Origin: Candidatus Altimarinota bacterium
GTDB lineage: Bacteria > Patescibacteriota > Gracilibacteria > BD1-5 > UBA6164
DNA: 33,737 bases
Assembly (NCBI GenBank): GCA_028719245.1
Contig: JAQUKG010000006.1
Coordinates: forward strand, 1 to 33,737
Direction: 5' to 3'
The notes below the pieces were generated by a model. It was given only the letters and a program-made list of their open reading frames with translations. It was not told the DNA's origin and searched no databases. Of this stretch, positions 3,328 through 33,737 are shown in pieces; positions within the stretch are counted from its first letter, which is position 1, and each line of letters starts with the position of its first letter. The position numbers were made by a program, and so were the translations under genes.

Positions 3328-6459
<3,132 letters not shown>

Positions 6460-19000: not shown

Positions 19001-20420
19001 GATGAACTTGATTTAATAATGACAACATCTCAATATGTTGAGATGAAATAGATTTATCAGCATCGTATTGAAGCATATTTATATTTCTAGCACGACCAAC
19101 TTTATGTTTAACTAGGTAATATATTCAAGCTATTAAAGCATCTTCATCTTTAGGATTTGTTAATCAAACTGCAAGTCTATTGTACAAATCCATAGTTGAA
19201 TGTTGATGTTCATTTTTATGAGCCTCGTTTGATGATTCTCAGTCAACTGATTTATTTCAAGTTTCTAGTCACATAGCTCATCTACGATCTATTTGGGCAG
19301 TTCTATCTCTTAATTCTCTTTTAGCTCTTCCTCATGCTAAAACTCATCAAGTAGCAGATCATACTAAAATTGGTGCTACTAATCCTCACCAAGGTCATAA
19401 TGCAACTCATCATACTAAAAGTCAAGCAAAGCTACGAGTTCAAAATGCTGAAGCTAATGCAGCAAAATTTGGATGATATATAAATGAAGCCACCTTTTCT
19501 TTAAACCATTTACCTGGTATTTTATTTACTTTATCGCTTAACCAGTCTATCATTTTTACAACTGCTCATTCCTTTCTTTCTCAATTTCATTGTTCCATTC
19601 TACCAATATCAAAGATATTTAATCTAGCTTCAAATGTACTTAAATCTTTTAAAAGTCATGCTTTTTCCAATCTAGCAAAAGAAACATTTAGTTGTTCTAT
19701 ATCTGTTGTTATTTTTTGACTAGTTATCTTTTTATATTCTGAATCAATTATTTGTTTAACTGTTTTCATTTTTTCTTTACGAGCATCGCTTCCTTGAGGT
19801 AAACTCATCCATTCTGAAATAGCAGCATTTAAATGTTCATTTCATTTTAAAGATACTTTTCAATTATCTAATTGTTCATACTCAAGATATGTTTTATTTT
19901 CAATTCAAACACTAGAAGCCCTAGCTTGTTCTTCTAATTTAGCTTCTGTATATTTTCAATTTTGAAGTCATTGTTCAATTTCTTTTTTAATTCTTCTTTT
20001 TTCACTGTCTATCCAAGCATCTCTTCACATTCTTTTTATACTTCTAGATAAAAATCAAATAGTATTTCTTTTAAGCCAGCTTCATTCTTTTAATTTTCTC
20101 ATTTCTTCATCAAAGTTTTCCATAGCTTTATGTTCTGCACATATATCTATAACTCTTGATAAATCAAGCACATCCAAAGATACTACATTTGCAGTATTTT
20201 GTGTAGTAGTTTGAGAATCTTGCCCCAGTTCTTGAGTAAGTGGTTGAGTTTGTGAATTTCAAGATCTTTGCACAGGTCAAGGCATACACATAACTCTATC
20301 AACTTGCCCTTCAGTTTCTTGCACTTGTTTTCAGAATCAAAAATCTCTTTGCAATCAAACTCATTTTTTAAGTCCTTTTTGAGGTTCTTCTTGTGGTTTA
20401 CTTCCGAATCAAAATCTCAT
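16005..20420 (-). CDS. Giant membrane protein with glycosyltransferase-2-like and HELGH zincin-like domains
   Basis: 1471 aa; the frame was checked codon by codon with no TAA/TAG. Order: a Gln/Thr-rich N-terminus (1-110), a helical segment, a Gly/Ala-rich hydrophobic region (about 313-360), a second hydrophobic segment (about 528-548), and a Trp/Pro/Gly-rich beta region (about 550-800). A GT2-like domain follows at about 824-1060: FSINLPAYREGEHIYKTL, VLIIRNGGADALDKN, YRSDLYAFAGGFDPDL and GEDIDLAYRIRR (E1035). Then comes a helical region, and a C-terminal zincin-like domain with HELGH at 1355-1359 and EDLAEVMGLY with a possible Glu ligand at E1420. A canonical DxD is not obvious, so glycosyltransferase activity is uncertain. 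It lies 15 nt after the 99-aa gene. It is not a known family as a whole. Confidence 0.85.
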
Positions 20421-20435
20421 AATAATAAAATTAAA

Positions 20436-20735
20436 TTATAAATTATTTTTAAAATCTTCTAACCAAACATCAAAATATTTATCTACTTCCATATCATAGT
20501 TTGGAACTCTAGTAGATAAAAATTCATCAGCATCAAACATATCTGGATCAAACATAATTGCATCACGAAATAAGTTTTTATCTTCTCTAGATAGTAAATC
20601 TGCTGCTATATTTGTCAGCACATATTCTTCAGCACTAGCTAGAGTTTTATCTATTATTACATTTTCATCTATTCAAGGAAATGTAAGTCATGCTGTTTTG
20701 ATACAATCTTGTATCTTTTGTCTAAATATATCCAT
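20436..20735 (-). CDS. Small acidic hypothetical protein, 99 aa
   Basis: Not recognised. It is acidic and helical, rich in Asp/Glu, Leu and Phe (FDPDMFDADEFLSTRVPNYD), with no signal peptide or membrane segment. It lies between the 1035-aa and 1471-aa genes, 15 nt before the latter. Its size and charge suit a small cytoplasmic partner or chaperone-like subunit of a large neighbour, but that is inference only. The start ATG is at 20735. Confidence 0.75.
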
Positions 20736-20807
20736 ATTTTTAAAAGTTAAGAGTTATTTATAATTATTTTTTAAAAGAAATCAAGAGTTTTTTATTAAAG
20801 ATAAAAA

Positions 20808-23800
20808 TTAATCTTTAATTTTACTATCAATATATCATCACAATAAATATCATCACATAGTATATCATAAAAATTCAATAAAATCTGAGGCTGACAATTC
20901 ATCCTCCCATAAAATTCATCAAGTTGCTAAGGTTCATTTTATTGCTAATCCTTTATAACTTGACCATTTACTAAGTTCAGCAGTTCTATCTCAAAGCATA
21001 ACTAATTTTAATAACTCTCAAGAAGATTTAAAAAATCATTTTGTATTTTTAAATATATCAATTAATTCCAAAGCTGTTCTTCAAGGTGTAAGTGCTTCTG
21101 AATATAACCATGATATAACTTTTGTTATTTCATTTTTATTAGCAGGAGAATATTTAGAATTTTTTACATGTTCCTTAATTGTAGTTAATATTCATTTAGC
21201 TTCTTCTAAAGTTTTATTTGGAATAGGTTTATTTAACTCTACTCAAAATCATTTCATTATATTTGCAAAATTATTATCAGTAAAATTTTTTAATTCCTCT
21301 CAAACTAATTTAGTTGTTCAATCTGATTTTAATACAACTATATCAATTTCATTTCCAGTTTTTTCAAGTTTTACTACATGACCATCTAATGTAATTTTTT
21401 TTCAGATATTAGCCTCTTTTAATATTCAATTAAATTTTCAAGCTTCTTTTAATTCTTCACCTACTTTAGTAATATTTATATCTTTAATTATATCATCAAT
21501 ACTTCATCTTTTAATAGTTCAATCAGCTAACTTGATTTCATATTCAGGGCTTTTTCTAACTTTTCATATCATATTTCATGTATTTCTTATTTCTGCTCAT
21601 CAAATCATCTTAGTTTCTCAAGGTTTAATAGATTTTATAAATTGAGAAGAATATTGACTAAACATCTTATTTTCAGTCCTACTTAAAGCTCAAGCTCATT
21701 TTAATAATGATTCTCATCTATTAGCTATACCTTCAGAAACTCTTCAAGAAACACTAGCTAATCTTTGTAATTTTTCAGGAGCTAATTTTGAAATATATGT
21801 AGTTATTTTTCCAAGCCATTGAGTATGTTTTAGTCATGGGATAAGTCATACTGCAGCAGCAGCATTATCCCAGAAAGTTTTTTTACCTCATTCAAATCTA
21901 GGATCAACTACATGACTAAATTTTAATATATCCCAAAGTAAATCTTCATCTTGGTTTGCTAAATCTGCTACTGAATATCAAACTCATAACATTCATGATA
22001 CAACTATTCACCGAGGTCATGTAGCACTTGGAGCTAAAGTTATTCACATTAATCACATTAATCATCAAATGTATTCTAATGTATAATCAACTTTAGTTCA
22101 TTCTTTATAAATGTCTACTGCTCAGCTTCAATCTTGATGTTTTAAGACTCAGTCAAATTTTCAATTAATATAGCTTCATTCCCATATAAAAATTAATTTT
22201 CCATCTTGCCGTTGATTCATAACCGTTTGATTCGCATTAGATTCCATTCAATTATTCACCTTTCAGTTTTTATAATCTCATTTAAAATAATTTCAGTTTT
22301 CTAACTTAGTATATCAAGCTTTTTCTAATGTAGTAGTGTTTGTTGGTGCATTTTGAGATTGTGCTTGTGCTCAAGCTTGAGGTACTGTTCAAGCAACTCC
22401 ACCAGCGACAGCTGTTCATGGATTAGTTGTTCAGTTTGTTCAAACTGCATTTTGAGACTCAGCTGTTCTTTCTAAATAATCTTTTATGGTTTCACCTGGT
22501 TTATAGTTTCATATATTATCTTTTTTATTTTTCAATAATTCAGCAAATATATACTCATAATATTTTCTATTTTCTAAATTAAGAGTAATTCAAATACTTT
22601 TAAAAAATTTATTTATTTCTTTAAGATCTCATTTTTTAGTTTCAAATATATTTAAATTTTCAGCATCAAGTTTTAAAAATTTATCATTTTTAGATAATTC
22701 TCACCATAAATTAGAAACTTGGTTTTTATCAAGAGTTCAAGCATTTGATTCTAATAAAGTAGAAAATTTATTATAAATAGAGTTTTCATTTTCTCATCAT
22801 AAATGTGATGAAACTTCACTTGCTAAAATTCATGTAGCTCAAGGAACTGATGCTACAACTCATACTCAAGCTCATATTTTAGCTCATGATGAAAATTCTC
22901 ATCAAAATATAAATGATAAAAATCCTCAAATAATTGCCAATATAGCCGCACTTCAAAACATTCAATTATCAATAGAGTCTGTTAATAATCATATAGGATC
23001 ATTTTCAAGTTTAGTTTTTAATTGTGCTGCTTCATCACTTGATCTTACTCATAAAGCAATTTTTTTTGCATCTGATAAAGTATTTAGAGATCAAAATATT
23101 TTTCTAGATATTTCTCATAATTTAACTGAATATAATTTATAGTCTTCAAAAGCATTTTCGTTTATTCACTTTCTTTGGTTATAGTATATATCATCAAAAT
23201 AAGAAAGAATAAACTCTTTATCAGCTTGATTATCAAACATATTTTTATCTAAATGTCATCTCAATAATTTATAATCTTCTTCTGATTTAAATTTGAAATT
23301 TTTTAAATCAGTATCACTTGGTTTTTTATTTTGAGCTATACTTATATTATGTTTTAATAATAATCTTTTAACATACTCTGTAGTTGTAAGAGGTTCTTTA
23401 CTATCTTTGTTTTCTGTTAAAAATTTATCAACAACAGATGATCTATAAAGCAATGCTGTATGAATATCTTGTATAGATATTTTTCAACTTCTTATACGGG
23501 AATTAAACAATTCTTGATAATTTACAACTTCGTCTACTCAAGGTATTATAGTAGTTTTATCAACCAATGGTTTATTTCAAGGAGTAAAATTAATTTCATT
23601 TCATTTTATACTATCTATTTTTATTCATTTTTGATTTAGTCATGAAAAAATAATTCATAAAACAAACATCCTATCATTTTTATCAGCAATTGTATCTAAA
23701 CTATCTAAAGTTGATTTAATAAAATCATAAGATAGTTTTCAATTTTCTACATCTTTTTTCAGTTTGTCTAATAAAACTCTTCTTTTATCTGATACTTCAG

Positions 23801-23915
23801 CTGTTTCAGTTGCTTCTCTAGATCTTTCGGCTGGATTTATAATGGTAGTACTAATATCAGTATAAGTTAAATTACCAGATCAATATAATGGTTGTCTTTC
23901 TTGATTTTGAGTCAT
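20808..23915 (-). CDS. Large membrane protein with MORN-like repeats, 1035 aa
   Basis: Not recognised as a whole. The N-terminal 300 residues are soluble and helical. A Gly/Ala-rich hydrophobic stretch (about 318-368) reads as one or two membrane helices, with many Gly from TGA. After a helical part comes a low-complexity Ala/Gly/Gln/Thr linker (about 490-535). MORN-like motifs follow (LENGNYFKGDYKNGKVNNG and GEGSYINGKFDGVLKHQDG, about 537-590), then a second hydrophobic pair (about 605-640), a helical region and a hydrophobic C-terminus. It is the first gene of the minus-strand run, 72 nt before the 99-aa gene, behind a promoter shared back to back with ftsX. It is plausibly an envelope-anchored scaffold. 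Confidence 0.8.
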
Positions 23916-23948
23916 AATTTTTAATATTAAAATAATAAAATCACTCAA

Positions 23949-23977
23949 ATTTTATCATATCTTTTTTTATTTTGCAA
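23949..23977 (-). promoter_or_regulatory. Promoter of the 14 kb minus-strand gene run
   Basis: On the minus strand, TTGCAA (23977-23972), a 17-nt spacer and TAAAAT (23954-23949), about 34 nt before the ATG at 23915. The -35 hexamer is a palindrome also usable by the opposite strand. Confidence 0.55.
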
Positions 23978-23999
23978 AAAAAAACTTTTTTAATAATAT
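23972..23999 (+). promoter_or_regulatory. Promoter of ftsX sharing the palindromic -35
   Basis: TTGCAA (23972-23977), a 16-nt spacer and TAATAT (23994-23999), about 31 nt before the ATG at 24031. The same TTGCAA serves the divergent promoter. Confidence 0.45.
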
Positions 24000-24030
24000 A
24001 TTTTTGATTTTAAACTTTTTATTTTTATTT

Positions 24031-24921
24031 ATGCTTTACAGATTATTGAAATATTCAATTAAAAATATTTTAAGAAATAAATTTTTGAGTTTTTCTTCAG
24101 TTCTAGTTTTAGCATTACTTATGTTTTTCATAAATATACTTATGATTGTCTATAATTTAAGCGATAATTTGATAGAAGTTATTAATTCAAAATTAACTAT
24201 TTCTCTTTATCTAAAAGATGATTATCCAAAAGAATCCATTGATGTTCAAAAATTAATTAATGATATATCAATGCAAACTCCAAATATAAAAATTGAATAT
24301 AAATCAAAAGATGAAGTTTTGGAAGAAATGAGAAAAAAAGATGAAGAACTTGTTAGTATAATCAGATCTCAAAATCCGCTTCCAGCAACAATAAATCTTT
24401 CAAATATAAAAATTGAAGAATATGAAAAACTAAATTATATAATAGAATCAAAATTATATATTTTATCAGATTTTAAAACAAGTTCTATTTATGATTATAG
24501 AACACAATATTTGAAAATATTAAAAATTATTTGAATATTAAAAACTTTAAAATTAGCTTTATATATAATTATTTGAATATTTTTACTTTCTATATTTGTA
24601 ATAACTTATTCTATAATTTGAAATTTTATTTATCATTATAGAGATGAAATATCTATTACAAAATTAGTTTGATGAAGTAATAGTTTTATATACGGACCAT
24701 TTGTTTTTCAATGAATAATTTATTCAATTATTTGATTTTTTTTAAGCACAAATATATTTTTACTTATTTTAAATAATATAAGTATAGTTTTTGATCAATC
24801 TAAAGTAAAAGAATATGTAGTAAATAGTGATTTAAGTTATATTTTATTTATTCAGTTAATTATGTTTATAATAATTTGATCTGTAAGTTCATTTTTATCA
24901 TCAGGGAAATATATGAAATAA
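24031..24921 (+). CDS. ftsX: Cell division protein FtsX
   Basis: 296-aa permease-like partner of the FtsE ATPase, which activates peptidoglycan hydrolases at the septum. The topology is typical: a short cytoplasmic N-terminus (LLKYSIKNILRNKFLSFSSV), TM1 about 17-42, an extracytoplasmic domain (about 45-165) with SLYLKDDYPKE and the PLPATINL motif, then three TMs near 180-200, 225-250 and 265-290. The segment ISITKLVGGSNSFI before TM3 is the conserved FtsX/MacB-type signature. ATG 24031 fits the family start; an upstream in-frame TTG at 24004 is less likely. ftsE is not adjacent, unlike the usual ftsEX pair, and the gene seems monocistronic. Confidence 0.9.
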
Positions 24922-24993
24922 TAAATTATAAATACCATTATTTCTTTAATTTAAACCAAAATATAATCATATCTAATTTTCTGTAAAAAAAAT

Positions 24994-25021
24994 TTGCATT
25001 ATTTTAATTATTTAATATAAT
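24994..25021 (+). promoter_or_regulatory. Promoter of the tRNA-Asp/tRNA-Ala unit
   Basis: TTGCAT (24994-24999), a 16-nt spacer and TATAAT (25016-25021). Transcription would begin near 25028, about 16 nt before tRNA-Asp. Confidence 0.7.
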
Positions 25022-25043
25022 CCTACTCGCTTTACTCTAAAAT

Positions 25044-25120
25044 GGGGATGTAGCTCAGTTGGTTAGAGCGCAGCACTGTCACTGCTGAGGTCGCGAGTTC
25101 GAATCTCGTCATCCTCGCCA
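25044..25120 (+). tRNA. tRNA-Asp (GTC)
   Basis: A 77-nt cloverleaf with acceptor GGGGATG/CATCCTC, anticodon stem CAGCA/TGCTG, loop CTGTCAC (anticodon GTC), T arm GCGAG-TTCGAAT-CTCGT and an encoded CCA. Confidence 0.97.
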
Positions 25121-25134
25121 TTATTTTGAAATTT

Positions 25135-25211
25135 GGGGCATTAGCTCAGTTGGCTAGAGCGCCTGCCTTGCACGCAGGAGGTCAACGGTTCGACCCCGTT
25201 ATGCTCCACCA
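25135..25211 (+). tRNA. tRNA-Ala (TGC)
   Basis: A 77-nt cloverleaf with acceptor GGGGCAT/ATGCTCC, anticodon stem CCTGC/GCAGG, loop CTTGCAC (anticodon TGC), T arm AACGG-TTCGACC-CCGTT and an encoded CCA. It is 14 nt after tRNA-Asp. Confidence 0.97.
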
Positions 25212-25226
25212 TAGATTTCTACGAAA

Positions 25227-25257
25227 ATTAAGATTTTAAATCTTAATAATTTTTTAT
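25227..25257 (+). terminator. Terminator after tRNA-Ala
   Basis: ATTAAGATT (25227-25235) pairs with AATCTTAAT (25239-25247), loop TTA, followed by a T-rich tract. It separates the tRNA unit from the small basic ORFs and tuf. Confidence 0.6.
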
Positions 25258-25274
25258 TCTTATTATACTATAAT

Positions 25275-25487
25275 ATGTCAAGTATTAGTAAAAGACCTAG
25301 AAGACTTAATTATGCTGTTAATAACAAGAGAGTTAAGAGTACTTCAAAAGTTTGAAATGCTGTTAAGCATTTTGAAATTTTAAAAAGAAGAGTTGAACTT
25401 GAGTGAGAAACTAAATGGTTAAGCAATGCTTTTTTAATTGTATGAAAAAAATTAAAAAAATACTGAATTAAAACTAACAATATATAA
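25275..25487 (+). CDS. Small basic protein, 70 aa, upstream of tuf
   Basis: Not securely recognised. It is highly basic (SKRPRRLNYAVNNKRVK at the N-terminus, KKLKKYGIK near the end) with a central helix AVKHFEILKRRVELEGE. The context (tRNAs, tuf, rpsJ, rpmB) suggests a ribosome-associated protein. The helix has a loose resemblance to bS21, but the family motifs are missing. TATACT (25264-25269) lies so close to the ATG that the transcript could be leaderless, though no good -35 is seen. Its TAA is one base before the next ATG, a strong sign of coupling. Confidence 0.7.
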
Positions 25488-25488
25488 T

Positions 25489-25575
25489 ATGGCTAGACTT
25501 ACATGACATGCTCACAGAAAATTAAGAAGAGCAGTAAAATTAATTACAAAGAAAATGAGAAAAAACAAAGCTTAG
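25489..25575 (+). CDS. Very small basic peptide, 28 aa, between the 70-aa ORF and tuf
   Basis: A 28-codon ORF (MARLTGHAHRKLRR... ending KKMRKNKA, stop TAG). About half of its residues are Lys, Arg or His and it has no acidic residue. It starts one base after the preceding stop codon and uses one TGA as Gly. Size and charge resemble tiny ribosomal proteins such as bTHX, without clear sequence similarity. It could instead be a leader peptide for tuf. It is considered real because of the coupling, the composition and the translation-gene context. Confidence 0.6.
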
Positions 25576-25623
25576 TTTAAAAGTTGTTTTTAAAATATAT
25601 TTTATTTTTTTATTTATAATATT

Positions 25624-26811
25624 ATGGCTTACGATAGATCTAAACCACATATGAATATTGGTACTATTGGTCATGTTGATCATGGTAAAACTACTACTAC
25701 AGCCGCTATTTCTGCTGTATTAAATGCAAAATATGGAACAGGTGAAGTTACTTCATTTGATAAAATTGATTCTGCTCCAGAAGAAAGAGCAAGATGAATT
25801 ACAATTAATACTGCTCATGTTGAATATGAAACTGCTGCTAGACATTATGCTCATGTTGATTGTCCTTGACATGCTGATTATGTTAAAAATATGATTACTG
25901 GTGCTGCTCAAATGGATGCTGCTATACTAATAGTTGCTGCTACTGATTGACCTATGGCTCAAACTAGAGAACATATTTTATTATCAAGACAAGTATGAGT
26001 TCCATATATCGTTGTTTTTATGAATAAATGTGATATGGTTGATGATGAAGAAATGCTTGAATTAGTTGAAATGGAAATTAGAGATTTATTATCTAAATAT
26101 GATTTCCCATGAGATGATACTCCAATTATTAGAGGTTCATGACTTGCTGCATTAAATAATCCAAAAGATTTTGATGGTGCTGCTAAACCAATTCTTGATT
26201 TATTTGAAGCTATTGAATCATATGTTCCAGTTCCAAAAAGAGATTTAGATAAAACTTTCTTAATGCCTGTTGAAGATGTATTTTCTATTAAAGGTAGAGG
26301 TACAGTAGTAACTGGTAAAATTGAACAATGAGTAATTAAAGTTTGAGATGATATTGAAATAGTTGGTCTTAGAGATACTAGAAAAACTACTTGTACTTGA
26401 GTAGAAATGTTTCATAAATCTCTTGATCAAGGTCAAGCTTGAGATAATGCATGATTACTATTAAGGGGTATTGAAAGGGATGATGTTGAAAGAGGTCAAG
26501 TTCTTGCTAAACCAGGTACAATTAAACCACATACTAAATTTGAATCTGAGGTTTATGTATTAACTAAAGATGAATGAGGAAGACATACTCCATTTTTCAA
26601 ATGATATAAACCACAATTTTATTTCAGAACTACAGATGTTACAGGTGATGTTGAATTACCTGCAGGTGTAGAAATGGTTATGCCATGAGATAATACTAAA
26701 ATGACTGTTACTTTACAAGCTCCAATTGCAATGACTGAATGATTAAGATTTGCTATTAGAGAATGAGGAAGAACTGTTTGATCATGAGTAGTTGCTAAAA
26801 TTTTAGCTTAA
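25624..26811 (+). CDS. tuf: Translation elongation factor Tu
   Basis: 395-aa GTPase that delivers aminoacyl-tRNA to the ribosome. G1 is GHVDHGKT (16-23), the switch I region is RARGITINTAH, G3 is DCPGHADY (C80, P81, G82), and G4 is NKCD from N134. Beta-barrel domains 2 and 3 follow with normal length ([55 protein letters not shown]). Invariant glycines G82 and the G of RARGIT are TGA, which makes this gene the cleanest proof of UGA=Gly in the window. Codon use is biased to GCT and GAT, as expected for a highly expressed gene. The leader has no Shine-Dalgarno motif. Confidence 0.99.
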
Positions 26812-26823
26812 TATGATTTAATA

Positions 26824-26849
26824 CTAAGAAGAAATAATTTTCTTCTTAG
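26824..26849 (+). terminator. Hairpin between tuf and rpsJ
   Basis: A perfect 11-bp stem (26824-26834 with 26839-26849), loop TAAT, 12 nt after the tuf stop. The following T tract is weak, so it may be a partial terminator or an mRNA stabilising/processing hairpin that lowers rpsJ relative to tuf. Confidence 0.55.
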
Positions 26850-26884
26850 AATTTAGTTTATATTAATTGTTATTTAAAATATAT

Positions 26885-27205
26885 ATGGCAAAAAAAACAT
26901 CAGAAAAAATGAGGATAACTATTAAAGCTTTTGATCATAGATTACTTGATGAAGCTGTTAAAAAAATAGTTTTAGTTGCTAAGGATTCTTGAGCAATTGT
27001 TGTTGGTCCTATTCCTCTTCCTACGAAAGTAGAAAAAATTACTGTAAATAGATCTACATTTGTAAATAAAGATGCTAGAGAACAATTTGAAATTAGAAGA
27101 CACAAAAGAATTATTGATTTAACTGAGACAACTCCAAAAACATTAGAGTTATTCCAAGAAATAAATATTCCAAATGGAGTTTGAGTTGAGATTAAATCTT
27201 TATAA
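26885..27205 (+). CDS. rpsJ: Small ribosomal subunit protein uS10
   Basis: 106 aa, a 30S head protein that also partners NusB in antitermination. Conserved motifs are RITIKAFDHRLLDEAV, GAIVVGPIPLPTK, FVNKDAREQFEIRRHKR and IDLTE. The start at 26885 gives an N-terminal MAKKTSEK extension; the internal ATG at residue 9 would also be compatible with the family. tuf-rpsJ adjacency is the classic str/S10 junction. Here, however, rpsJ is followed by rpmB rather than rplC, so the S10 operon is broken. Confidence 0.97.
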
Positions 27206-27248
27206 TAATTTTAAAATTATTAATTTATTAGTTGTTAATTAAAATATT

Positions 27249-27446
27249 ATGTCAAGAGTTTGTGAGATAACTTGAAAAAGAACTTGAGTTGGTAATACAA
27301 GAAGCCACTCAATGAGAGCTATGAGAAGAAAATATTATCCAAATCTTTTCTATAGAAATATTAAAGACCCTGAAACTGGATTAGTTTATAGAATTAGAGT
27401 TTCTGCTTCAGGACTTAGAACTTTAAAGAAAAAAGGAATTATATAA
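27249..27446 (+). CDS. rpmB: Large ribosomal subunit protein bL28
   Basis: 65 aa. It opens with SRVCEITGKRTGVGN, followed by SHSMRAMRRKYYPN and the C-terminal RIRVSASGLRTLKKKG, all standard bL28 features. Only one of the cysteines of zinc-binding forms is present (C5). It lies 43 nt after rpsJ and is followed by a terminator. Confidence 0.95.
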
Positions 27447-27449
27447 TAG

Positions 27450-27486
27450 AAATGTAAAGGTATGATAAAAATTATCTTTACATTTT
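27450..27486 (+). terminator. Terminator after rpmB
   Basis: A 10-bp stem (27450-27459 with 27476-27485), containing a smaller inner hairpin and ending in TTTT. It sits just before tRNA-Leu. Confidence 0.7.
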
Positions 27487-27490
27487 GTTT

Positions 27491-27576
27491 GCCCAGATGG
27501 TGGAATTGGTAGACACGCAGGACTTAAAATCCTGTTCCAATCTGGAGTGCGGGTTCGATTCCCGCTCTGGGCACCA
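27491..27576 (+). tRNA. tRNA-Leu (TAA)
   Basis: An 86-nt class II tRNA with acceptor GCCCAGA/TCTGGGC, anticodon loop CTTAAAA (anticodon TAA), a long variable arm, T arm GCGGG-TTCGATT-CCCGC and an encoded CCA. Confidence 0.96.
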
Positions 27577-27674
27577 TTTAAAAAATAAATCGTTGAATAA
27601 CATATACTATCAAACAGATTTTATCCTATTAATTTACGATATTTTCAAAAGGAAGAATTAAAAATTCTTGAGTA

Positions 27675-27680
27675 TATAAT
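27675..27680 (+). promoter_or_regulatory. Possible -10 element for rpsP-khpA
   Basis: A TATAAT hexamer 27 nt upstream of the rpsP ATG. No convincing -35 is present. The rest of 27577-27707 holds nothing else I can identify. Confidence 0.35.
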
Positions 27681-27707
27681 TTATTTATAAGAATTAATAA
27701 TATTTTT

Positions 27708-27947
27708 ATGTTAAAAATTAGATTGGCTAGAGCTTGAAAGAAAAATTCACCTTTTTTTAGAGTAGTTTTGACTGAACATACAGCTCCTACAAAAAGTTGA
27801 TACAAAGAGGTTTTATGATTTTTTAATCCGATTACTAAAGAATTTAAATTAAATGATTTAGAATCAATTAAAAAATATATTTCAAATTGAGCTCAATTTT
27901 CACCAAGGATTGAGAAATTGATAAAAACTAATAATATAATTTTATAG
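27708..27947 (+). CDS. rpsP: Small ribosomal subunit protein bS16
   Basis: 79 aa. It matches bS16 from the start, MLKIRLARAGKKNSPFFRVV, through ALTEH-like VLTEHTAPTKSG, EVLGFFNP and the C-terminal SNGAQFSPRIEKLIK. Several invariant glycines are TGA. It stops at TAG. It is followed by khpA, the common rpsP-khpA (ylqC) neighbourhood, but rimM and trmD are absent. Confidence 0.96.
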
Positions 27948-27953
27948 TATTAT

Positions 27954-27976
27954 ACCCCTTATTTAGGGGTTTTTAT
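27954..27976 (+). terminator. Terminator between rpsP and khpA
   Basis: ACCCCT (27954-27959) pairs with AGGGGT (27965-27970), followed by TTTTT, 6 nt after the rpsP stop. This is a strong G-C stem in an AT-rich context. Confidence 0.75.
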
Positions 27977-27999
27977 TATTTATCTAACATTACACTAAT

Positions 28000-28236
28000 A
28001 TGCAAGAAGTAGAATTTTTAAAATTTATTGTTGAAAATTTAGTTGAAAATAAAAATGAAATTGATATTCAAAGAACTGAAGATGAAATGTGAGTTTTACT
28101 TACTTTGAAAGTAAATAAATCTGACATGTGAGTAATTATCTGAAAAGGTTGAAATATAGTAACTTCTATTAGATCATTACTTAAGATACTTTGAAATAAA
28201 ATTGGTAAAAGAGTAAATTTAAAAGTATTAGATTAA
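28000..28236 (+). CDS. khpA: KH-domain RNA-binding protein KhpA
   Basis: 78-aa single KH domain that, with KhpB/EloR, binds RNA and affects cell elongation in Gram-positive bacteria. The KH signature loop GVIIGKGGNIVTSIRSLLK is intact, as is the family ending GKRVNLKVLD. Position after rpsP is conserved across many bacteria. Two glycines of the GKGG loop are TGA or mixed. Confidence 0.92.
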
Positions 28237-28296
28237 TATTGCAATATTTTTATATTTAATTATATTAAAATCATATTAACTTTTAATTTAATTTTT

Positions 28297-28749
28297 ATGT
28301 TTATTGAGACTGTATTTGCAATGCAAGCTGGTGATACAAATGGTACATCTGCTTTGTTTAGTTCTAAGATGGATATTTGAGATTTTCTTTTGTTTGCAAT
28401 TTCTATGATAGTTTTATTCGCTTGAATTTTCTCAATTTTATATATTTTATGGTGATGAGTTTTATTAATATTATCTTGATGAAAAGATGATAAAATTAAA
28501 CCAGCTATTAACTCTATAAGATATGCTTTGATTTGATTATGAGTTATAGTTTTGTCAATATTTGTTTTTCCAAAGATAGCATGACTTTTGTGACTTGATG
28601 TAACTAAATATTCATCTCCTGATAAAATATTTAAGGAAATAAAAATTTTGTGAGACAAAATATTTTGAACTAAATCCACAACAACTATAGATTCCAATTG
28701 AGATATAAAAAATGTTAATTCTCTACCAAATGATTTCTCTGATTTGTAG
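28297..28749 (+). CDS. Type IV secretion pilin-like membrane protein, second copy
   Basis: 150 aa. After a short N-terminus it has two hydrophobic helices (about 29-58 and 74-98) flanking the Gly-rich charged turn ILSGGKDDKIKPAINS. This is the same architecture as the protein at 6568-6960 (two helices around a GG-E/D-K turn) but with a longer C-terminal tail. The stop codon TAG lies within the left arm of a 36-bp inverted repeat, so the last codons are complementary to the def 3' end. It may be a pilin or membrane component of a type IV secretion-like system. No partner genes are adjacent. Confidence 0.72.
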
Positions 28750-28818
28750 ACAAAATAAACAACAAAAAAGCTAAATTAAATAAATTTAGCTTTTTTGTTG
28801 TTTATTTTGTCTACAAAT
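28742..28818. repeat. 36-bp perfect inverted repeat; bidirectional terminator between pilin-like gene and def
   Basis: 28742-28777 is the exact reverse complement of 28783-28818 with a 5-nt loop. Its core (AAAAAAGCTAAATT and AATTTAGCTTTTTT) is a perfect bidirectional terminator for two convergent genes. The outer arms contain the TAG of the plus-strand gene and codons for the last residues of def (VDKINNKK). Confidence 0.9.
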
Positions 28819-29264
28819 AAAACTCAATCTAAATGATCTATTTCGTGTTGAATTATACGAGCTGAAATTCAATTTAATATCAAAGTTTTTTGTTTTTTAT
28901 TTTCATCTATATAATTTAATTTTATTGATTTATACCTTTGTACTTCTCATCTTTTTCAAGGAACAGATAAGCATCATTCTGTTTCTATATCAGTTTCTTG
29001 AGATTTCTCAAGAATTTCTGGATTTATCATCAAAACAGTTTGATAATTTTCATCTTCCCGATCTCTCAAAAGACTAACTATAATTAGTCTTTTATTTTCT
29101 CAGATTTGAGGAGCAGCAAGTCATACTCATCTATTATTTGGATTTTTTATATATTTAATCATTTCTTTCCCAAGTTTAATATATTTATCAAGCTCCTGAG
29201 TTTTAACTGCTTCGCTTACTTTTCTTAGTATTTCATTTTTTGTTCAAGTTTGGATTTTTAACAT
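28776..29264 (-). CDS. def: Peptide deformylase
   Basis: 162-aa metalloenzyme that removes the N-formyl group from nascent proteins. The three family motifs are intact: GVGLAAPQIG (Q53), EGCLSVPG (metal ligand C98) and QHEIDHLDG (HEIDH at 140-144). Key glycines are TGA. Its last residues (VDKINNKKAKFI) are encoded in the right arm of the 36-bp inverted repeat. Stop TAA. ATG 29264 gives a normal-length protein (MLKIQTGTKNEILRKVSE). Confidence 0.97.
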
Positions 29265-29293
29265 ATATTTCTTATTTACTAATAATTGTAATC

Positions 29294-29321
29294 ATTATAA
29301 AAATAATTCTACTTTTTCAAA
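29294..29321. repeat. 28-bp direct repeat, copy 1 (3' end of methyltransferase)
   Basis: Identical to 29960-29987. It covers the last three codons (LKK and TAG) of the methyltransferase and 15 nt beyond. Confidence 0.9.
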
Positions 29322-29932
29322 GTTTTCTTAAAACAAATTGTAAACCATTCTTGATTATTGAAATTTTGCTTATCTTCATAAATTACATCAAATTTATTTC
29401 AAGCAAGTTCTTTATATTCTTCCAAACTATAATGATAATAAACTCTTGTTCAAAATTCATCGGTTTTTGTTATTTCACTATATTTATCTGAAATTTTCAT
29501 TGAAATATAAATAATTCAATTATTATTTAATATTTCATAAAATTTCTTAAACAGTTTAATAGTTGTTTCTTTATCAGAATGAATGAGAGATGCAAATGCA
29601 AAAATAATATCAAATTTTCTATCAAATTTATATTCTTCTATATCTCAAACTAAAAACTCTCCATCTGGAAATTTATTTTTTGCATGTTTTATTGCTTCTT
29701 TTGAAATATCTATTCAAATATAATTTTTTGAAAAGTTTCTAATATAATCATATTCTCTTCATGTAAAACATCATATTTCTAATATACTTACATTTTTATC
29801 TTTTCAATATAATTTTAAAGCATTATCTATATCAAAAACTCTTGTAGGTATTTTATCAAATTTTTCTATTAACTCTTTAGCTTTTGAGTTATAAACTCAA
29901 AAGTTTAGTTTTTTTATTTCTTTTTTAGTCAT
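29309..29932 (-). CDS. Class I SAM-dependent methyltransferase
   Basis: 207 aa. SAM-binding motif I is ILEIGCFTGREYDYI (E52), with strand-2 acidic motif IGIDISKEAIKHAKNKF, motif II-like GDIEEYKFDRKFDIIFAFASLIH and a C-terminal strand pair (YYHYSLEEYKEL). It is a Methyltransf_11/25-type enzyme of unknown substrate. The gene is bracketed by 28-bp direct repeats and shares the LKK-TAG ending with clpB, suggesting it was inserted between def and clpB. Confidence 0.85.
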
Positions 29933-29959
29933 TTTAATTTTTTATAATTTATATGTTTT

Positions 29960-29974
29960 ATTATAAAAATAATT

Positions 29975-29987
<13 letters not shown>
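29960..29987. repeat. 28-bp direct repeat, copy 2 (3' end of clpB)
   Basis: Identical to 29294-29321, in the same relation to a stop codon: it covers LKK and TAG of clpB plus 15 nt of 3' flank. Confidence 0.9.
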
Positions 29988-32557
<2,570 letters not shown>

Positions 32558-32576
32558 ATATTTATAGTTAAAAAAT

Positions 32577-32609
32577 AAACTAGCACATATATATTATATG
32601 TGCTAGTTT
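32577..32609 (-). promoter_or_regulatory. CIRCE-like operator of clpB, also a hairpin after the LamG gene
   Basis: A 14-bp perfect inverted repeat (32577-32590 with 32596-32609). It holds TAGCAC (32581-32586), 13 nt, then GTGCTA (32600-32605). The HrcA-binding CIRCE element (TTAGCACTC-N9-GAGTGCTAA) has the same TAGCAC-N13-GTGCTA core and spacing. It lies 20 nt upstream of the clpB ATG and overlaps the promoter -10. On the minus strand it is followed by a T-rich tract, so it could also terminate the upstream LamG gene. Confidence 0.65.
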
Positions 32610-32619
32610 TAAAAGTCAA
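32593..32619 (-). promoter_or_regulatory. clpB promoter
   Basis: TTGACT (32619-32614, minus strand) is followed by TATAAT at 15-nt spacing (32598-32593) or TAATAT at 17-nt spacing (32596-32591). The -10 lies within the CIRCE-like repeat. Confidence 0.55.
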
Positions 32620-32630
32620 AAGATTTTTTA

Positions 32631-33737
32631 TTATTTTATTACATTATATAAATTCTGAATTTCTTGATCTGAAAGTGCACGGTTGTAAATACGAACTTCG
32701 TCAATAGCTCAAGAAAAATAATCCCAATATCATCATCATATTTGTGTAGTATTATTTCAAGCAATATAACTTCAGGTTGCAGAAGAAACAATTACATTAT
32801 TTAAATACATATATGCTATTTGACTATTATATTTTATGACTAAATTATTCCATTTTTTCAATTGTAAGCCTCAAAGTAAATATAATACTAAATTTCCTCA
32901 TTCTTGAGTATCCCAAAATATAGGATATCAAGTACCTTCATTAATCCCAAATCTATATCAACTAGAAAGATATCAACCCTTTAATGACATTATTTCTTGT
33001 TTCCATCAATTTTTTGAGGTAAATGTATCTGGATTTAGCCATATTGAGATTGTAAAATTACCATTAGTTGTAAAATTTAAATTAGGCCCAGTAATTGTAA
33101 TATTATCGCTAATTCCATTAAATATTCTTGCATTTCATATTATGCCAGAAGATATAATGGTTCAATTTACAATTCAATCATTATGATATCAACTTAAATC
33201 TTTTAGTTTTCCATCGCTAGTTCTTGTTTCCATATCCCAATATCATACAAGTGAATTATCTAAATTTGATAGTTCTTTATTATTTACACTCATAGCTGTT
33301 AATACTTGATTTCAGCTTCAGGTTAATATTCAACTTGATGAGTTTGAAAATACTGTTTTATATGTAGTTCAACTATTTGTTGTTAGTAAATCTATATTTG
33401 TTCAACTTTCTTGAATTGGATTATTATTTGTATCAAGTATTACTCATAAACTATTTCATAATACACTTGGTACTCTTAGTGTATTATCAGTAGCATATAC
33501 TTCTTGGATTATTAGATTATATGATAATGGATTTCATTCTAGTAGTGTTAATAATTCATACTTTGTATTATTTAAATTTGTTAGATATGTGTATCTAGTT
33601 TTATCTAATGGATCTAGTGGTATTTGATTCATATTTATTATTCTTGTAGCATTATCTCAAAAATATCATTGAGTTGCTATAATACTACAGCTTGCTACGC
33701 TCTTTATTCAGCTTTCTGTTTGTGGGTATAATCATGT
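32631..33737 (-). CDS. LamG-domain surface protein, pilin-like upstream part; 5' end outside window
   Basis: The last 368 residues of a protein that continues beyond the right edge. The visible N-terminal portion (QIPLDPLDKTRYTYLTNL, KYELLTLLEGN) resembles the C-terminal region of type IV pilin-like or pseudopilin proteins of candidate phyla bacteria. It is followed by Ser/Thr/Asn-rich repeats. A concanavalin A-like/LamG domain then runs from LVGYWDMETRTSDGKLKDLSG to the terminal AIDEVRIYNRALSDQEIQNLY, which is the classic ending of this fold. It is likely an extracellular carbohydrate- or surface-binding adhesin displayed on a pilus. The signal or prepilin segment cannot be checked. Stop TAA, 22 nt before the CIRCE-like hairpin. 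Confidence 0.85.

Follow-up and report, generated by a model that had tools for sequence, protein, structure and literature searches.

A lineage variant of CIRCE at the clpB promoter of a Candidatus Altimarinota bacterium: a predicted HrcA operator that may also serve as a terminator

Near one end of a 33,737-nt stretch of DNA from a Candidatus Altimarinota bacterium (hereafter the window; contig JAQUKG010000006.1 of assembly GCA_028719245.1), the chaperone gene clpB is preceded by a co-directional open reading frame for a LamG/ConA-like protein, and a palindrome lies between the two (Table 1). TGA was read as glycine (genetic code 25), because the reading frames of the window are long under that code only, a usage that points to a bacterium of the Gracilibacteria/SR1 type. 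Both 15-bp arms of the palindrome are perfect (AAACTAGCACATATA), and the terminator scan agrees on its 3-nt loop. The start of clpB (32557, minus strand) lies 19 nt past the repeat; on the other side, the stop codon of the LamG-like frame (32631) is separated from it by 21 nt, which contain the -35 of clpB. The original prediction had correctly placed this stop close ahead of the repeat, with a distance one nucleotide too long (22 nt). The promoter-like pair TTGACT/TAATAT spans 32619-32591, its second hexamer falling within the repeat. The claim that the palindrome stands ahead of a heat-shock gene and over its -10 is therefore borne out for clpB, and the overlap with the -10 is kept in 31 of the 38 clpB sites found in the order to which the genome belongs.

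Table 1. Features of the clpB promoter region, in window coordinates
Feature	Position	Strand	Remarks
clpB, proposed controlled gene, 860 aa in code 25	29975..32557	-	Pfam Clp_N, AAA_2, ClpB_D2-small
Perfect inverted repeat, proposed HrcA operator and terminator-like hairpin	32577..32609	-	15-bp arms, 3-nt loop; ATTTTTT tail
27-bp 9-9-9 CIRCE-type unit, CTAGCACAT-N9-ATGTGCTAG	32580..32606	not assigned	core exact
Promoter-like -10 inside the operator	32591..32598	-	TAATAT with 17-nt spacing, or overlapping TATAAT with 15
Promoter-like -35 of clpB, TTGACT	32614..32619	-	same spot relative to the operator in 31/38 clpB sites
LamG/ConA-like ORF, upstream, co-directional, open at window end	32631..33737	-	Laminin_G_3 1.5e-23

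The repeat contains TAGCAC-N13-GTGCTA, that is, the core and spacing of CIRCE named in the original prediction, as an exact copy at 32581-32605. When up to two mismatches are allowed, this is the sole match in the window, with 0.37 expected and 29 of 100 shuffled sequences reaching one, so that the window by itself is not conclusive. In the whole genome of 1.35 Mb, the exact core is present in three copies and its backward control in none, the corresponding figures at up to two mismatches being five and three. A search of the window against Rfam returned tRNAs only.

Most of the other sites of the genome precede chaperone genes. The original prediction had proposed to look for the repeat before groES, dnaK or hrcA: an exact core at C22:7969 lies upstream of dnaK (dnaK match 2.9e-223), whose reading frame starts 86 nt on, and a core with one mismatch at C7:22971 lies 38 nt ahead of groES, with groEL following and the groES promoter divergent from a thioredoxin-like frame. 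The third exact copy, at C58:152, precedes the start of a reading frame of which 42 residues are present at the contig end; these have no Pfam match, and we take them to be the beginning of htpG by their likeness to the Hsp90 N-terminus. The fifth genomic site (C11:28073, two mismatches) falls inside an ABC-transporter-like frame and was taken as background. No core with up to two mismatches was detected before hrcA in this genome. The recurrence ahead of chaperone genes, here and across the order, rules out a chance palindrome. The dnaK operator of the window genome overlaps the stop codon of the gene upstream.

As for the repressor, an hrcA gene is present at C7:23461-23913, where a six-frame reading of the genome gives 35.6 bits. 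The 232-aa protein matches PF01628 with 49.7 bits (cut-off 22.2), while PF03444 stays below its cut-off (17.5 against 21 bits), and the N-terminal winged helix-turn-helix matches HrcA of T. maritima (1stz) with 55 bits. Moreover, the predicted model (pLDDT 77) aligns with 1stz_A over 224 residues with a Z score of 20.6, the next row reaching 12.3, which identifies the protein as HrcA even though it is shorter than 1stz (338 residues, about 340 being expected). Its relatives within the order are mostly of 230-244 aa, and 24 genomes from elsewhere in the phylum likewise have open frames of 231-266 aa; shortness is thus not the cause of the change in the operator described below. Accordingly, both things on which the original prediction was staked, an hrcA gene in the genome and the motif before groE and dnaK, are in place. 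Around this locus (L007, 3991-5127, on contig C7), hrcA overlaps the 3′ end of a frame that looks by eye like a glycosyltransferase gene, and a perfect AT-rich hairpin lies 3′ of hrcA, facing a convergent thioredoxin-like frame.

The association extends to the order as a whole. Of its 77 genomes, 74 contain the exact core and two the backward control, and HrcA scores above cut-off in 70. Of 153 exact sites, 151 were examined, two of genome G076 being left out, and a chaperone gene lies downstream of 139 of the 151: dnaK at 61, clpB at 38, htpG at 27, groES/groEL at 11 and dnaJ at 2. The clpB sites were assigned by the gene start in 27 cases and, in the remaining 11, by a match to ClpB whose start falls around position 120-160 in the protein from the window. 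The 12 other sites precede what we presume, by eye, to be pyrG (2), glmS (1) and a DUF2000-like frame followed by clpB (1), together with a small conserved frame (3) and unclear genes (5).

Some of these non-chaperone neighbours deserve a word of their own. The small conserved frame, of about 140 aa and starting MF(K/Q)G(R/K)I, stands behind an exact core in three genomes (L023/G011, L031/G020, L045/G041); no Pfam family scores above cut-off, and the regulon might thus include a gene not recognised before. One family is represented by two genomes (L013/G001, L014/G002), and in each an exact core lies directly ahead of a frame that by eye appears to encode a CTP synthase. At L141 (G039, 1001-2025) the exact core is followed by the small DUF2000-like frame and then by clpB, as if the former had been inserted into the operon.

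The operator is, however, not a CIRCE in the strict sense. The consensus of this element is TTAGCACTC-N9-GAGTGCTAA, and the arms of the 27-bp unit (CTAGCACAT against TTAGCACTC) differ from it in three of nine bases each, six of 18 in total, outside the near-full consensus of about two mismatches at most. The original prediction had noted a departure in the outermost bases; the comparison stands, but the departure is not confined to them, since the inner TC/GA has been lost order-wide. In particular, none of the 151 sites of the order has TC after TAGCAC on both strands and 17 have it on one, whereas in other orders of the phylum it is present on both strands in 50 of the 72 sites counted (72 listed out of 96 exact sites, summed over 47 of 115 genomes). 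For these two reasons, the six differences and the complete lack of two-sided TC, the element is filed here as a variant of CIRCE. A CIRCE ahead of hrcA itself is common, though not universal. Outside the order, 10 of the 17 hrcA loci of the phylum that could be parsed have the exact core upstream; within it, none of 22 stretches with hrcA does, two of these being from the window genome. The repressor differs along the same line: in the order, 20 of 21 HrcA loci have QPYNSAGR as their wing sequence, while the third residue is H in 14 of the 17 parsed loci of other orders (of 24 loci in all, seven were set aside because the wing motif did not parse them). This co-variation of operator and wing is correlative and compares two groups, so that a single event could explain it. 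Compared with the textbook HrcA/CIRCE system, then, what is shared is the 9-9-9 palindrome, the TAGCAC/GTGCTA core, an hrcA gene in the genome and sites at dnaK and groESL; what differs is the inner TC/GA, which none of the 151 sites has on both sides, the lack of an hrcA site at up to two mismatches, and a placement that varies by gene.

Placement was measured from the first base of the core to the best promoter-like pair of each site. At clpB sites the -35 lies near -15 and the -10 near +7 in 31 of 38, the operator covering the -10; at dnaK sites the -35 lies at +30 to +34 in 60 of 61, the operator preceding it; at htpG sites the -35 lies at -30 to -26 in 26 of 27, the operator coming just after the -10. 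The groES sites are split, seven of 11 resembling clpB and four dnaK. In other words, the position of the operator is fixed for each gene and differs between genes. If the predicted promoters are used, the mRNA of each of these genes would lack the hairpin in part or entirely. Most dnaK sites consist of an operator flanked by A-tracts, 7-8 nt before the -35 (for example L008, 3969-3995), and repression there cannot be a simple cover of the -10.

Whether the palindrome of the window also ends transcription is a question raised by its shape. As the original prediction had remarked, the repeat is followed by T's, ATTTTTT lying directly past it on the clpB-sense strand, and a stem-loop with a T-rich tail after a stop codon is what defines an intrinsic terminator. 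On that strand the RNA folds with -19.2 kcal/mol (z -6.0 against shuffles), and the hairpin energy ranks third among the 38 clpB sites; four of the 15 stem pairs are G-C. A terminator scan of 20000-33737 found 12 candidates, the repeat among them, where 1.9 were expected, some of the 12 being overlapping versions of one hairpin. The AT-rich terminators of the window at 28757-28803 and 29879-29905 likewise consist of a hairpin with few G-C pairs and a T-tail, but contain no HrcA core and do not overlap a chaperone promoter.

In a comparison across the order, sites with a co-directional upstream neighbour were set against sites with a divergent one. The orientation was derived from ORF length or codon usage instead of annotation, a crude procedure whose two versions disagree in four of the 76 sites called by both. 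At clpB the contiguous stem measures 12.9 bp at co-directional sites (n=13) and 8.9 bp at divergent sites (n=14; p=0.001). The hairpin energy shows the same contrast by ORF-length calls (-14.6 in 18 sites against -11.4 in 16, p=0.014; tail p=0.057) and by codon-usage calls (-15.6 in 13 against -10.8 in 14, p=0.0013; tail p=0.23), and it persists inside family f1 alone (p=0.019), with the same sign in the other families (p=0.12 with 3 and 8 sites). Permutations stratified at genus level gave p=0.016 for energy and p=0.0024 for the tail, and at site level p=0.003 and 0.002, while the tail of the opposite strand, used as control, showed no contrast (p=0.38). No energy contrast was observed at htpG (p=0.79; tail p=0.04, with only three divergent sites) or at dnaK (p=0.52; tail p=0.10). 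A terminator-like shape is seen at 33 of the 61 co-directional sites and at 8 of the 32 divergent ones, the term being defined by thresholds of our own choice (-9 kcal/mol and five T in eight) which the energy and tail permutations do not use. At clpB, eight of the 14 divergent sites have this shape, though that strand needs no terminator there, and one co-directional site, L076 (G032), has a weak hairpin and lacks the T-tail. Taken as a tendency among sequences, the contrast lends moderate support to a terminator function where one is needed.

From the sequence comparisons, it appears very probable that HrcA controls clpB through this repeat as its operator, in a lineage-specific form of CIRCE. 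We favour, at roughly 55%, the view that it additionally terminates the LamG-like gene, so that the dual role originally proposed is well backed on the operator side by the shared, order-wide sites, and in part on the side of termination, by the shape and the clpB stem contrast. A serious contender, to which we give somewhat better than one chance in three, is that the repeat is an HrcA operator and nothing else: the T-rich stretch would simply be where the clpB transcript begins, AT-rich as usual, the extra pairing would come from base composition, and the LamG-like gene would read through into clpB. The terminator-like shape of divergent clpB sites that do not need it, the lack of an energy contrast at htpG and dnaK and the GC-poor stem all speak for such an arrangement; it does not readily account for the longer clpB stems beside co-directional neighbours, with no contrast on the opposite strand, nor for the outcome of the genus-stratified permutations, and the short gap after the LamG stop, taken up in part by the -35, leaves no room for another terminator.

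The converse, an intrinsic terminator of the LamG-like gene that resembles CIRCE by chance, would explain why a stem-loop with a T-tail lies at a suitable distance after the stop; it is very unlikely, given that core and spacing recur before dnaK, htpG and groESL, with chaperones downstream of nearly all sites of the order, and that A's instead of T's come after most dnaK sites, so that the common core does not mark terminators. Still less credit is due to an operator for a different heat-shock repressor, for instance CtsR or HspR, of which clpB is a target in other bacteria: by consensus patterns, CtsR-type operators in the window number 26 against 23.4 expected and HAIR-type (HspR) operators four against 1.7, close to chance and with none at the clpB promoter, and it is HrcA that co-occurs with the core in the order. 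Equally slight is the chance that the repeat acts as RNA in the clpB leader, as a thermosensor or mRNA-stability hairpin. A CIRCE within the 5′ leader does affect mRNA stability in other systems; here, however, the predicted -10 lies inside the repeat, leaving only part of the right arm in the clpB mRNA, and the dnaK operator, placed before the -35 in all but one site, would not be transcribed from that promoter.

For the favoured dual role, we infer HrcA binding, heat release, start site and termination as follows. Active HrcA would occupy the promoter spacer together with the -10 and keep RNA polymerase off clpB; upon heat shock, HrcA would be released and clpB transcribed along with dnaK, groESL and htpG by virtue of the common operator. 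The lengthened arms and the T-tail would end the transcripts of the LamG-like gene. As the start is predicted in the right arm, the clpB mRNA would be devoid of the whole hairpin, and RNA coming from the LamG-like gene would carry it.

A more tentative reading, which we regard as possible but put at about one chance in three, joins these features: the order would have given up the inner TC/GA together with a change of the HrcA wing (mostly from QPHTSAGR-like to QPYNSAGR) and the loss of the operator before hrcA, and the bases so freed at clpB would have been taken over by the -10 and, beside a co-directional neighbour, by a terminator. If true, a single 33-bp palindrome would combine the functions of promoter, operator and terminator, and the release of HrcA could alter alike the initiation at clpB and the read-through from the upstream gene. 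According to the excerpts available of one study, the CIRCE signal is highly conserved across distant groups (PMC545781), which makes an order-wide change notable. The order offers a natural example in which an operator that is otherwise strongly conserved has changed along with its repressor, and the locus a testable case of one palindrome common to operator and terminator. The predicted sites also provide a concrete heat-shock regulon (dnaK, groESL, clpB and htpG under HrcA) for an order of uncultured bacteria with small genomes.

Control of clpB by CIRCE is in itself already known in Mollicutes, whose HrcA regulons, in the available parts of two papers, count clpB and dnaK among the CIRCE sites (PMC4245973, PMC5138195). 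Small genomes and these two genes under CIRCE are features in common with the present case; the Mollicutes regulons differ in keeping a near-full consensus, with at most two changes in functional elements (PMC5138195), and in including lon, and the same excerpts describe no sharing of a clpB operator with a terminator. The CIRCE elements of M. gallisepticum lie upstream of promoters, again as given in the excerpts (PMC4245973). In the portion available on cyanobacterial groES, transcription starts inside the CIRCE loop and yields an mRNA without the full hairpin (PMC2662882); a start inside the operator is predicted here as well, the gene being clpB instead of groES, and that portion mentions no terminator role. 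Our literature search found no CIRCE described as both operator and terminator, including in the available parts of PMC4245973, PMC12494982, PMC8069837, PMC6212727 and PMC545781, the word "terminator" being looked for in PMC8069837 only. In the literature searched, HrcA was not found together with Gracilibacteria or the candidate phyla radiation, and for HrcA with Patescibacteria the only match concerned, by its title, the oral microbiota.

Two further observations concern the window at large. On the minus strand, at 3328-6459, leucyl-tRNA synthetase is represented by two frames in the same phase, with a TAA in that phase and a few codons between them. The gene may be split, or the break may stem from the assembly or from a difference between strains; the first part has a NUDIX domain adjoining the editing domain. 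Finally, the hairpin at 28757-28803, a GC-poor stem of 20 bp between convergent genes, bears T-tails on both strands and is likely a two-way terminator.
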